Shown here: positions 11,215 through 16,111 of the stretch, one piece after another | Layout: every line of letters begins with the position of its first letter | Numbering within the stretch: the first letter of the stretch is position 1 | Assembly (NCBI GenBank): GCA_016875395.1 | Contig: VGRF01000026.1 | Location: 1-64,000, forward strand | Length of the DNA: 64,000 nt | Reading direction: 5' to 3' | Source of the DNA: Deltaproteobacteria bacterium | GTDB taxonomy: Bacteria > Myxococcota_A > UBA9160 > UBA6930 | Made by a program: the position numbers and the translations under genes | Notes under the pieces: generated by a model | What the model saw: only the letters and a program-made list of their open reading frames with translations | What the model was told of the DNA's origin: nothing | Databases searched by the model: none

Positions 11215-13304
<2,090 letters not shown>

Positions 13305-13413: not shown

Positions 13414-14502
13414 ATGCGCTCCCTCGAGCACACGCGCCCGCGCCCAGGACTCTCGGTACCAGTTGTTACGGCGCTGTCGGCGCGCGGCGAGCTGATCGAA
13501 GCGGATCAGCGTGCGCTCGTACGCTTCGTGATTCAGAGCGGCTGGGGCGCGGACATCGTGTTCGCGAACGGCACGACGGGCGAATGGGATCGCGTCGGTC
13601 CCGAGACGGGGCGGCGCGTCGTCGCGATCTGCGCGGAGGAAGTGAAGAAGGCGAGCACGGAGCTCGCCGAGGGAGAGCGCGTCGAGTGCTGGGCGGGCGT
13701 GACCGCGGCGACGCGCGCCGAGACGCTCGCGAGCGCGAGCGCTGCAATCGCCGCCGGCGCCGATGCGCTCGTGATCGCGCCGCTCGCGATTCGCGACGTC
13801 AGCGACGCGGTGCAGTTCGTCGCACGCGACGTGGGTGATCTGCTCGACGCGAGCCCGCGGCGAGTCCCGGTCTATCTCTACGACAACGCCGCGATCGCGG
13901 CTGATCCGCACCGCACGCACATCCGCACGAAGCAGGTGAAGGCGCTCTCGCGGCTCGACTTCGTGCGCGGCATCAAGGTGAGTGCGCCGCGGAAGGTGCT
14001 CGGCAACTACACGCAGGCCGCGCGCCAGTTCCGCGAGCGCGGCGAGTTCGGCATCTACGTCGGCGACGCGATGACGATCTTCGACGTGTTCCGCCCGCGC
14101 GCCGGAATCGCCGGCGTGCTGAGTGATTACTGGCAGCGCTTCTGGCTCTCGGGCGGGCTCCCGATCGGCGTCGTGTCGGGCCCCGCGAACGCGCTGCCGC
14201 GCGAGTGGGCGCACGCGTGGCAGGCGTGCCGCGCGGGAGACGCGGAGCGCATGGCCGCAGCGGAGCGCGTGCTCAGCGAGTTTCGCGCGGCGACGAAGGC
14301 CGGCGGCGCGAGCCGCACGATCGCGTGCCTCAAGCGCGCGCTGCTCGCGCAGGGCGTGCTCACGAGCGATGCCGTCGCTTCGGGCACGCCCGCGCTCGGA
14401 GCGGAGGATGCGGCGCGCTTCGATGCCGCGTTCGCCCGCGTGCGCGCGCTCGCGCGGGAGGTCCTCGAGCCAACCTGGGTGACCCATGAGCGATCGGCCT
14501 AA
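13414..14502 (+). CDS. DHDPS/N-acetylneuraminate lyase-superfamily aldolase
   Basis: A 362-residue class I aldolase or dehydratase of the DapA superfamily, distinct from the dapA at 30.4 kb. NGTTGEWDRVGPETGRRVV matches the phosphate/carboxylate-binding GTTGE loop, VYLYDNAAIA carries the conserved Tyr, and VRGIKVSAP holds the Schiff-base Lys. It is about 60 residues longer than DapA. No lysine genes are adjacent; the next gene, overlapping by 17 bases, is a PfkB kinase-SIS isomerase fusion, so the substrate is more likely a sugar acid such as a 2-keto-3-deoxy sugar. The specific substrate cannot be assigned. The ATG at 13414 is used. The stop TAA lies within a TAACAA word. Confidence 0.78.
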   Translation: MRSLEHTRPRPGLSVPVVTALSARGELIEADQRALVRFVIQSGWGADIVFANGTTGEWDRVGPETGRRVVAICAEEVKKASTELAEGERVECWAGVTAATRAETLASASAAIAAGADALVIAPLAIRDVSDAVQFVARDVGDLLDASPRRVPVYLYDNAAIAADPHRTHIRTKQVKALSRLDFVRGIKVSAPRKVLGNYTQAARQFRERGEFGIYVGDAMTIFDVFRPRAGIAGVLSDYWQRFWLSGGLPIGVVSGPANALPREWAHAWQACRAGDAERMAAAERVLSEFRAATKAGGASRTIACLKRALLAQGVLTSDAVASGTPALGAEDAARFDAAFARVRALAREVLEPTWVTHERSA

Positions 14503-16111
14503 CAAGCGGACCGTCGGCATCGGCAGCATGGTCGCGGACCGCATTCACCGCGTGCCGCGCATTCTCGCGAGCGACCAGAAGGGCATCATGCGCGCCGGCG
14601 CGGACGGGCGCACCGCGGAGCTGCGCGTCGGCGGCGTCGTGCTGAATCACCTCGGCTGGGCCGCGGTGCTCGGGCTGCCGGTGGGCATCTTCGGCAAGCA
14701 GGCCGACGACGCGAACGGGCGCTTCCTGCGCGACGCGATGGATCGCTTCGGCATCGCGAAGGACATCGTGCTCGACGGCTCGGCCAGCTCGTTCGCCGAC
14801 ATTTACGTCGACGACTCCGGCGGCCGCGCGATCTACATGGCGCCCGGCGCGACGAGCGAGACGACCTACTCGCACGTGCGCCGCCACCACGAGCGCACGA
14901 TCGCGAGCGCGCTGCGCGCGACGACGGAGGTCTCGCAGCTGCCGCTCGCTGCGGCGAACGAGGTGTGCCGGCTCGCGGAGGTGGCGGGCGTGCCCACGCT
15001 CGTCGACCTCGACGTCCCGCCTTCGGACGCCGTGCCGCAGCTCGGCACGCAGGCCGAGCTGGAGCAGCTGCTGCGGCGCGCGAAGATCCTGAAGCCGTCG
15101 AGCGCGGCGGCGCGCGAGCTCGTGCTCACGGCGAGCGGCGACGCGCTCGCGAGCGCAAGGAAGCTCCGCGAGCGCTACGGGAACGAAGCCGTGGTCGTTA
15201 CGGACGGCGAGGCGGGCTGCGCCGTCGCCACCGCGCGCGAGGCGCTGCGCGTGCCGGCGTACGCGGTCGCGAGCGTCGTCGACACCACGGGCGCGGGCGA
15301 CGCGTTTCTCGGCGGCGTACTCGTCGGGCTCGCCGCGGGTCTCGGCTGGGAAGACATCGCGCGGCTCGGCAACGCCTGCGGCGCGGCATGCGTCGAGAAG
15401 CTCGGCGCGTTCCCCGACGACGCCATCGCCGCGCGCGACGCCGTGCTCGCGCGCTACGACGGCGCCGCGCTGCCGAGCTGGGTGATACGCGGGCTCGCGG
15501 TCACGCCCGAGGCGCTGCCGGCAAACGAGGCGCTCGTCGCCTACGACGTTGCGCTCAGCGAGCTCGCCGGGCTGCGCAAGCGGCTCGACGCGGCGGCGTT
15601 CGAGCGCGTGGTCGGATTGATCGACGCGGCGCGCGCGAGCGGCGGGCGGGTGCACGTGACGGGCATCGGCAAGCCCGAGCACATCGCACGCTACGGGGCG
15701 GCGCTGCTCGCCTCGGTGGGCACCCCTGCGTCGTTCCTGCACGCGACCGAGACGATGCACGGCAGCGCCGGGCAAGTCGTGCGAGGCGACGTCGTGATCG
15801 CGATCAGCAACAGCGGCGAGACGCGCGAGCTGCTCGCGGCCGTCGGCGCGGTGAAGGCGCTCGGCGCGCAGCTCGTCGCGATCACGGGCGCCCCGCGCTC
15901 CTCGCTCGCGCAGCTCGCTGCGGTCGTGCTCGACGCGGGCGTCGCGCAGGAAGGCGGCGGCCTCGGCCTCGCTCCGCGCGCGAGCGCGGCGGCCGAGTTG
16001 TTAGTGGTCGCCGCGCTCTCCGCCGCACTCGAGCACGCGCGCGGCCTCACGCGCGCCGAGTACCACGCGCTGCACCCGGCGGGCGGGCTCGGAGCGAAGA
16101 GCGGCGGCTAG
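14486..16111 (+). CDS. PfkB-family sugar kinase fused to a SIS sugar-phosphate isomerase
   Basis: A 541-residue two-domain protein. Residues about 1-330 form a ribokinase/PfkB kinase: GIGSMVADRIHRVP, GGVVLNHLGWAAVLG, and the catalytic signature VVDTTGAGDAFLGG. Residues about 350-540 form a SIS domain: VTGIGKPEHIARYGAALLASV, ETMHGSAGQVV, AISNSGETREL, and a C-terminal YHALHPAGGLGAK that matches the end of the isomerase core in KdsD/GutQ arabinose-5-phosphate isomerases. CBS domains, usual in KdsD, are absent. The protein would phosphorylate a sugar or keto-sugar and interconvert a phosphosugar. It overlaps the aldolase by 17 bases, so the two should act in one pathway. The substrate is unknown. 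Confidence 0.85.
   Translation: MSDRPNKRTVGIGSMVADRIHRVPRILASDQKGIMRAGADGRTAELRVGGVVLNHLGWAAVLGLPVGIFGKQADDANGRFLRDAMDRFGIAKDIVLDGSASSFADIYVDDSGGRAIYMAPGATSETTYSHVRRHHERTIASALRATTEVSQLPLAAANEVCRLAEVAGVPTLVDLDVPPSDAVPQLGTQAELEQLLRRAKILKPSSAAARELVLTASGDALASARKLRERYGNEAVVVTDGEAGCAVATAREALRVPAYAVASVVDTTGAGDAFLGGVLVGLAAGLGWEDIARLGNACGAACVEKLGAFPDDAIAARDAVLARYDGAALPSWVIRGLAVTPEALPANEALVAYDVALSELAGLRKRLDAAAFERVVGLIDAARASGGRVHVTGIGKPEHIARYGAALLASVGTPASFLHATETMHGSAGQVVRGDVVIAISNSGETRELLAAVGAVKALGAQLVAITGAPRSSLAQLAAVVLDAGVAQEGGGLGLAPRASAAAELLVVAALSAALEHARGLTRAEYHALHPAGGLGAKSGG

Follow-up and report, generated by a model that had tools for sequence, protein, structure and literature searches.

Kdo is the sugar acid that anchors outer-membrane polysaccharide. 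Its breakdown by Kdo aldolase (EC 4.1.2.23) has long been known as a reaction to which, to our knowledge, no dedicated gene has been assigned; the open literature that we searched contained nothing on genes for Kdo catabolism and no gene for a Kdo aldolase. Arabinose-5-phosphate isomerases without CBS domains exist, and we take PDB entry 5uqi to be the CBS-less c3406 of E. coli CFT073. KDG kinases, which phosphorylate KDG, belong among the PfkB families. N-acetylneuraminate lyases form Kdo from D-arabinose and pyruvate at 1-1.5% of their ManNAc activity (PMC4016182), and Kdo is cleaved by E. coli NanA and human NPL (PMC13220900).

The locus described here lies in a 64,000-nucleotide stretch of DNA (the window) and encodes an aldolase followed by a fusion of a PfkB kinase with a SIS isomerase. 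All three activities are those of known enzyme families. The first-pass annotation had not recognised the fusion from known pathways, and we likewise found no description of a PfkB-SIS protein in the open literature searched. So far the fusion, the aldolase that constantly partners it, and the fusion's likely role as a stand-in for KdsD appear to be undescribed.

Layout and conservation of the two-gene unit

The features of the locus are as follows.

11245 to 12612: enolase gene
12609 to 13304, plus strand: gene for a 231-residue protein without a Pfam match, between enolase and aldolase
13414 to 14502, plus strand: class I (Schiff-base) pyruvate aldolase of the DHDPS/NAL superfamily, 362 residues (PF00701)
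14486 to 14502, plus strand: 17-base overlap of the aldolase 3' end with the start of the fusion (open reading frame coordinates)
14486 to 16111, plus strand: PfkB kinase-SIS isomerase fusion, 541 residues (Pfam PfkB and SIS)
14519 to 15409, plus strand: ribokinase-like PfkB domain, residues 12-308 of the fusion (profile and fold matches, motifs)
15410 to 15520, plus strand: linker between kinase and SIS, approximately residues 309-345, weakly conserved (alignment, lowest pLDDT)
15644 to 16099, plus strand: SIS domain of the KdsD/KpsF/GutQ type without CBS domains, approximately residues 387-538 (TIGR00393)

Both open reading frames were found where the first-pass annotation had placed them, with the 17-base overlap that it had claimed. 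In most relatives the overlap is 4 or 8 bases. An overlap of this kind is consistent with co-translation of the aldolase and the fusion. Enolase had also been described as lying next to the unit; it is not adjacent, and the 231-residue gene intervenes.

A fusion of this kind could be an artefact, in which two genes are joined through a missed stop codon or an assembly error. In one genome (G197) the kinase and SIS genes are in fact split (L035, on the same contig as L085), and loss of the kinase also occurs. Against an artefact, the window's reading frame runs through the join without an interrupting stop, and 71 distinct uninterrupted PfkB-SIS sequences were found in other genomes, from independent assemblies in several phyla. 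The fusion is thus genuine, and we give the artefact practically no chance.

Of the 284 genomes searched in the window's phylum, 43 had strong matches to the fusion (E <= 1e-60), all of them within the window's order or class. The surroundings of the aldolase were surveyed with one genome per species, which gave 80 loci; by their record titles, these belong to Myxococcota, unclassified Deltaproteobacteria or Proteobacteria, Binatota, and Acidobacteriota. The fusion lies directly downstream of the aldolase in 63 of the 80. Five loci have a SIS gene alone in that position, one has adjacent but unfused genes for the kinase and SIS (L035 of G197), one has a kinase at a contig end, and the remaining ten have neither. 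Of these ten, two stop at a contig edge, one being Myxococcota-like; the rest have record titles that name Acidobacteria, Blastocatellia, or Chloracidobacterium. When nine unlinked Acidobacteriota-type genomes were searched for the rest of the unit, two had the fusion elsewhere, four had SIS alone, one had a SIS fragment, and one had the kinase alone; the ninth had no convincing fusion, SIS, or kinase anywhere. The two-gene unit is conserved in Myxococcota (the window's order and class), Binatota, and some Acidobacteriota, and its carriers are soil and water bacteria of these three phyla.

The kinase is the looser part of the unit, repeatedly lost or separated. Five genomes (G120, G168, G071, G099, and G139) pair the aldolase with SIS but contain no close homologue of the kinase, and G154 has its kinase on another contig. 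The view that three activities form one unit therefore stands in that they travel together across three phyla, and has to be qualified by the missing kinase in several lineages. Fused and unfused members were intermixed in a tree built from 85 SIS domains, with nine changes of the fused label, at least four of them forced. The tree is best read as an early fusion after which the kinase was repeatedly lost or split off; the direction of change is not proven.

Several single loci deserve mention. In two Acidobacteriota (L163:7660-12737, L164:3640-10736) the fusion sits away from its aldolase, after genes for an FAD-linked oxidase, a GDSL hydrolase, and an isocitrate/isopropylmalate-type dehydrogenase. 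In G289 (L169) the kinase domain stands alone as a gene of 333 residues, and no SIS partner was found in that genome. One acidobacterial aldolase is in two overlapping pieces (L132:7968-9337), likely through a frameshift or an assembly error. In the phylum-level group of one Binatota carrier, that carrier had the only fusion among 118 genomes; 52 of the others had SIS matches of approximately 170-190 bits in frames mostly of 320-400 codons, which are probably canonical KdsD. A plasmid or mobile origin was considered and dropped; 72,556 plasmids were scanned and had no aldolase match and no full-length fusion.

The genes around the unit vary. In the window's class it follows enolase and the 231-residue gene; the Binatota units have prfA and prmC nearby, and the unaccompanied aldolase of Acidobacteriota is often preceded by genes of the def-fmt-rsmB type (both named by eye from sequence). 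Because the neighbours differ across phyla while the unit stays, we do not count enolase as part of it; its synteny is confined to the window's class and it is missing from the Binatota and Acidobacteriota surroundings. The 231-residue gene lies between enolase and aldolase in most relatives read, and its family has 16 members over 20 relatives and the window. A response-regulator receiver domain joined to an XRE-type helix-turn-helix (approximately 200 residues) is encoded close upstream in nine of 20 relatives (L049:1603-2193, L044:7205 onward, L043:7065 onward, L037:7178-7771, L045, L048, L050, L052, and L054) and not in the window. This protein is a possible regulator of the unit.

Sequence and structure of the three domains

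The aldolase matched PF00701 (DHDPS) with 34.3 bits (cut-off 22.1). It retains the Schiff-base lysine (K188), Y156, and the GTTGE motif, and K188, Y156, T54, G56, and E57 were invariant across 88 aligned sequences. Several arginines and lysines of the aldolase, including R263 and K307, are also invariant. The AlphaFold model had a pLDDT of 89.6. Its best PDB folds were N-acetylneuraminate lyases, and the nearest solved structure by both fold and profile was the C. glutamicum lyase 5c54. The aldolase fell below every curated equivalog cut-off, including those of the DapA, KdgD, and HpaI-like models; the DapA, KdgD, and archaeal KDG aldolase equivalogs all gave 31 bits or less against cut-offs of 206-397.

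The kinase domain matched PF00294 (PfkB) with 127.1 bits (cut-off 25.8) over residues 12-308, and its best folds were ribokinases. Its GG..N motif is conserved; D18, G50, E148, and the TGAGD motif with the catalytic-base aspartate D272 were conserved in 77 sequences. The score with the bacterial ribokinase equivalog TIGR02152 was 94.5 bits, below the cut-off of 299.65. The AlphaFold model of the fusion (pLDDT 90.2) is confident in both domains and weak only at the N-terminus and the linker, where residues 338-343 had a pLDDT below 50. An HldE or heptose route was rejected, since SIS forms the C-terminal domain and the kinase matches ribokinase with a higher score than RfaE.

The SIS domain matched PF01380 with 75 bits at fusion residues 388-511. 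In the KpsF/GutQ/KdsD model TIGR00393, only the SIS part was matched (E 2.9e-38, model positions 1-152 of 268), with 132 bits against a full-length family cut-off of 203.7, and a profile search of the fusion found no CBS domain. The SIS fold and the likely class of function stand; full-length membership in the KdsD/KpsF/GutQ family does not. K396, H425, E448, E489, and H530 align with K59, H88, E111, E152, and H193 of E. coli KdsD, which we take to be its catalytic residues, and these five positions were conserved in 82-84 of 84 sequences. The closest PDB chains were 5uqi, 2xhz, and 3etn, all of the arabinose-5-phosphate isomerase type. The domain probably has an arabinose-5-phosphate isomerase role.

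One position speaks for caution. All 84 members have arginine at position 498, where c3406 and canonical KdsD have serine. With this serine replaced by an invariant R498, the SIS domain may use a substrate other than arabinose 5-phosphate. The unit might then act on another sugar acid (KDN, KDG, or another 2-keto-3-deoxy acid) with altered SIS specificity, which the general proposal of the first-pass annotation would permit, and the position of the aldolase under all curated cut-offs would agree. The catalytic positions of KdsD are nevertheless retained in the SIS domain, which is much nearer KdsD than hexose-phosphate SIS enzymes such as HxlB or GlmS. We regard another sugar acid as unlikely.

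Kdo genes in the carriers and a possible salvage route

The aldolase was present in 40 of the 41 SIS carriers of the window's class whose surroundings were read, and was absent from all 15 non-carriers of the order, one of which (G240) had a weak partial DHDPS-like match. This co-occurrence had a Fisher p of approximately 1e-12, with kinship ignored. The sole aldolase-less carrier read, G222 (L170), is a 74%-complete genome with enolase, the neighbour gene, and the fusion in place.

The window's genome has KdsB, as do 43 of the 44 genomes sampled. Among sampled carriers, KdsA was present in all but four and KdsB in all but one; the fusion carriers G286 and G305 had no KdsA match above cut-off, and G305 was also without KdsB. 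With KdsA and KdsB in nearly all carriers, we conclude that the carriers make Kdo. The SIS of the fusion was the only KdsD-like SIS in 45 class carriers, except for a short second fragment in G277. Within the order, canonical KdsD with CBS domains was found only in the non-carriers G001 and G022, and the contrast (0 of 45 carriers, two of 15 non-carriers) was not significant (p 0.06). On these sequence data, no better candidate than the SIS domain is available for the arabinose-5-phosphate isomerase of these Kdo makers. To be the sole candidate is weak proof, because 13 of the 15 non-carriers in the order (G012, G041, G061, G076, G080, G094, G107, G149, G192, G227, G240, G245, and G250) lack a KdsD-like isomerase altogether. 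Four of the 13 were tested for Kdo genes (G012, G061, G076, and G094) and have both KdsA and KdsB. A hidden second isomerase in the non-carriers was considered and rejected; the SIS matches read there look MurQ-like by eye.

We tentatively propose, with the chances somewhat below even, that the two genes form a catabolic or salvage unit for a 3-deoxy-2-ulosonic acid of the Kdo type. Through a Schiff base, the aldolase would split Kdo to give pyruvate and D-arabinose, and the PfkB domain would convert D-arabinose to D-arabinose 5-phosphate. The SIS domain, whose step is well supported by its sequence, would interconvert D-arabinose 5-phosphate and D-ribulose 5-phosphate, and the latter would enter the pentose phosphate pool. 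We infer the substrates and the direction of these reactions chiefly from chemical fit: cleavage of Kdo yields D-arabinose, the 5-phosphate of which is used by KdsD-type isomerases, and a ribokinase-type kinase would fill the missing phosphorylation step. Because the isomerase points to arabinose 5-phosphate, an eight-carbon acid of the Kdo type is likelier than KDG. The first-pass annotation had suggested a compact pathway, next to enolase, that acts on a deoxy or keto sugar acid; the conserved active sites agree with such a route, here narrowed to the Kdo type, and enolase drops out of it.

Several observations stand against this proposal. In the window, neither kds nor other LPS genes are linked to the unit. 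The invariant R498 speaks against it too, as do the non-carriers without a KdsD-like isomerase and the gaps in KdsA and KdsB in G286 and G305. Several lineages have the aldolase and SIS without the kinase, which would leave the second step to another enzyme, and known lyases act on Kdo and D-arabinose only weakly. That Kdo is the substrate of this aldolase is a real possibility but one held with doubt.

Nearly every one of these Kdo-making genomes has no other KdsD-like isomerase, and for this reason the SIS domain probably also feeds KdsA with arabinose 5-phosphate for the synthesis of Kdo. Such dual use would explain why SIS was kept where the kinase was lost. It is also conceivable that supply is the whole of its role. 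SIS would then be only the arabinose-5-phosphate isomerase of the Kdo pathway, and the kinase and aldolase would either make or balance its precursor (for example, by phosphorylation of D-ribulose or D-arabinose) or use another substrate and be merely co-expressed. The KdsA and KdsB genes, the lack of another KdsD-like SIS in nearly all carriers, and the dispensable kinase fit supply, as does G285, where the unfused SIS gene adjoins a DUF374 gene and an lpxA-like acyltransferase gene in a lipid A context; the salvage unit with dual use draws support from G285 as well. Supply alone leaves unexplained both the aldolase, the most constant partner, and the transporter genes of family f11. In that family, genes for an Opp/Dpp-type solute-binding protein and two permeases lie directly upstream of the aldolase (L049:3451-7159, L050, L051, L037, and L161), with no ATPase gene alongside, which suggests an imported substrate. 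We consider supply alone, in either form, rather improbable.

A phosphorylated order of the salvage steps must also be weighed. PfkB would make Kdo 8-phosphate, the aldolase would yield arabinose 5-phosphate and pyruvate, and SIS would yield ribulose 5-phosphate. The presence of KDG kinases among the PfkB families, the several invariant arginines and lysines of the aldolase, and the kinase-less aldolase-SIS pairs, which would suit a phosphorylated aldolase product, are all in keeping with this order. The kinase, however, is ribokinase-like in fold and sugar-site residues, the aldolase is nearest N-acetylneuraminate lyase, and the route would oppose KdsA in the same cell. We judge it quite unlikely.

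Returning to the Kdo salvage unit, its fullest form would be a new Kdo-specific aldolase family coupled to a bifunctional D-arabinose kinase and arabinose-5-phosphate isomerase that also takes the place of KdsD in LPS synthesis, spread over Myxococcota, Binatota, and Acidobacteriota. That full form is doubtful. If true, it would give Kdo breakdown its genes, explain how whole Kdo-making lineages manage without canonical KdsD, and add a PfkB-SIS enzyme that takes an aldose to a ketose phosphate within one chain. Even with a different sugar, a three-activity unit so tightly conserved in uncultured phyla is tractable for assignment of function.

Comparison with known systems

The aldolase shares the TIM-barrel, GTTGE motif, tyrosine, and Schiff-base lysine of the NAL/DHDPS superfamily (5c54, E. 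coli NanA, and YagE), but has approximately 20% identity to these proteins and is 50-70 residues longer. The kinase resembles ribokinase in fold, in the aspartate and GG..N motif of the sugar site, and in the TGAGD catalytic motif; it differs in its fusion to SIS and in what seems to be Q151 in place of the ribose-site glutamate. HldE likewise holds a PfkB kinase within a bifunctional fusion tied to surface sugars. It is nevertheless a different fusion, as the first-pass annotation had said, with a nucleotidyltransferase where the window's protein has SIS, and the window's kinase is nearer ribokinase.

With the KdsD/KpsF/GutQ proteins, including c3406 and 3etn, the isomerase shares the SIS fold and the five catalytic positions, and its SIS-only length is that of c3406. 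It differs in sitting behind a PfkB kinase without CBS domains, and in an invariant APRAS motif containing R498. The c3406 gene lies in a PTS operon, whereas the window's SIS adjoins an aldolase; the c3406-type operon was rejected as a model, its CFT073 neighbours being PTS genes, a MalY/PatB protein, and a dehydrogenase, with no aldolase. The reaction logic of the unit is shared with classical Kdo aldolase (EC 4.1.2.23) and with the isomerase-kinase-aldolase sets of the sulfo-EMP type, although the isomerase and aldolase families of those sets are unrelated to those of the window's unit.
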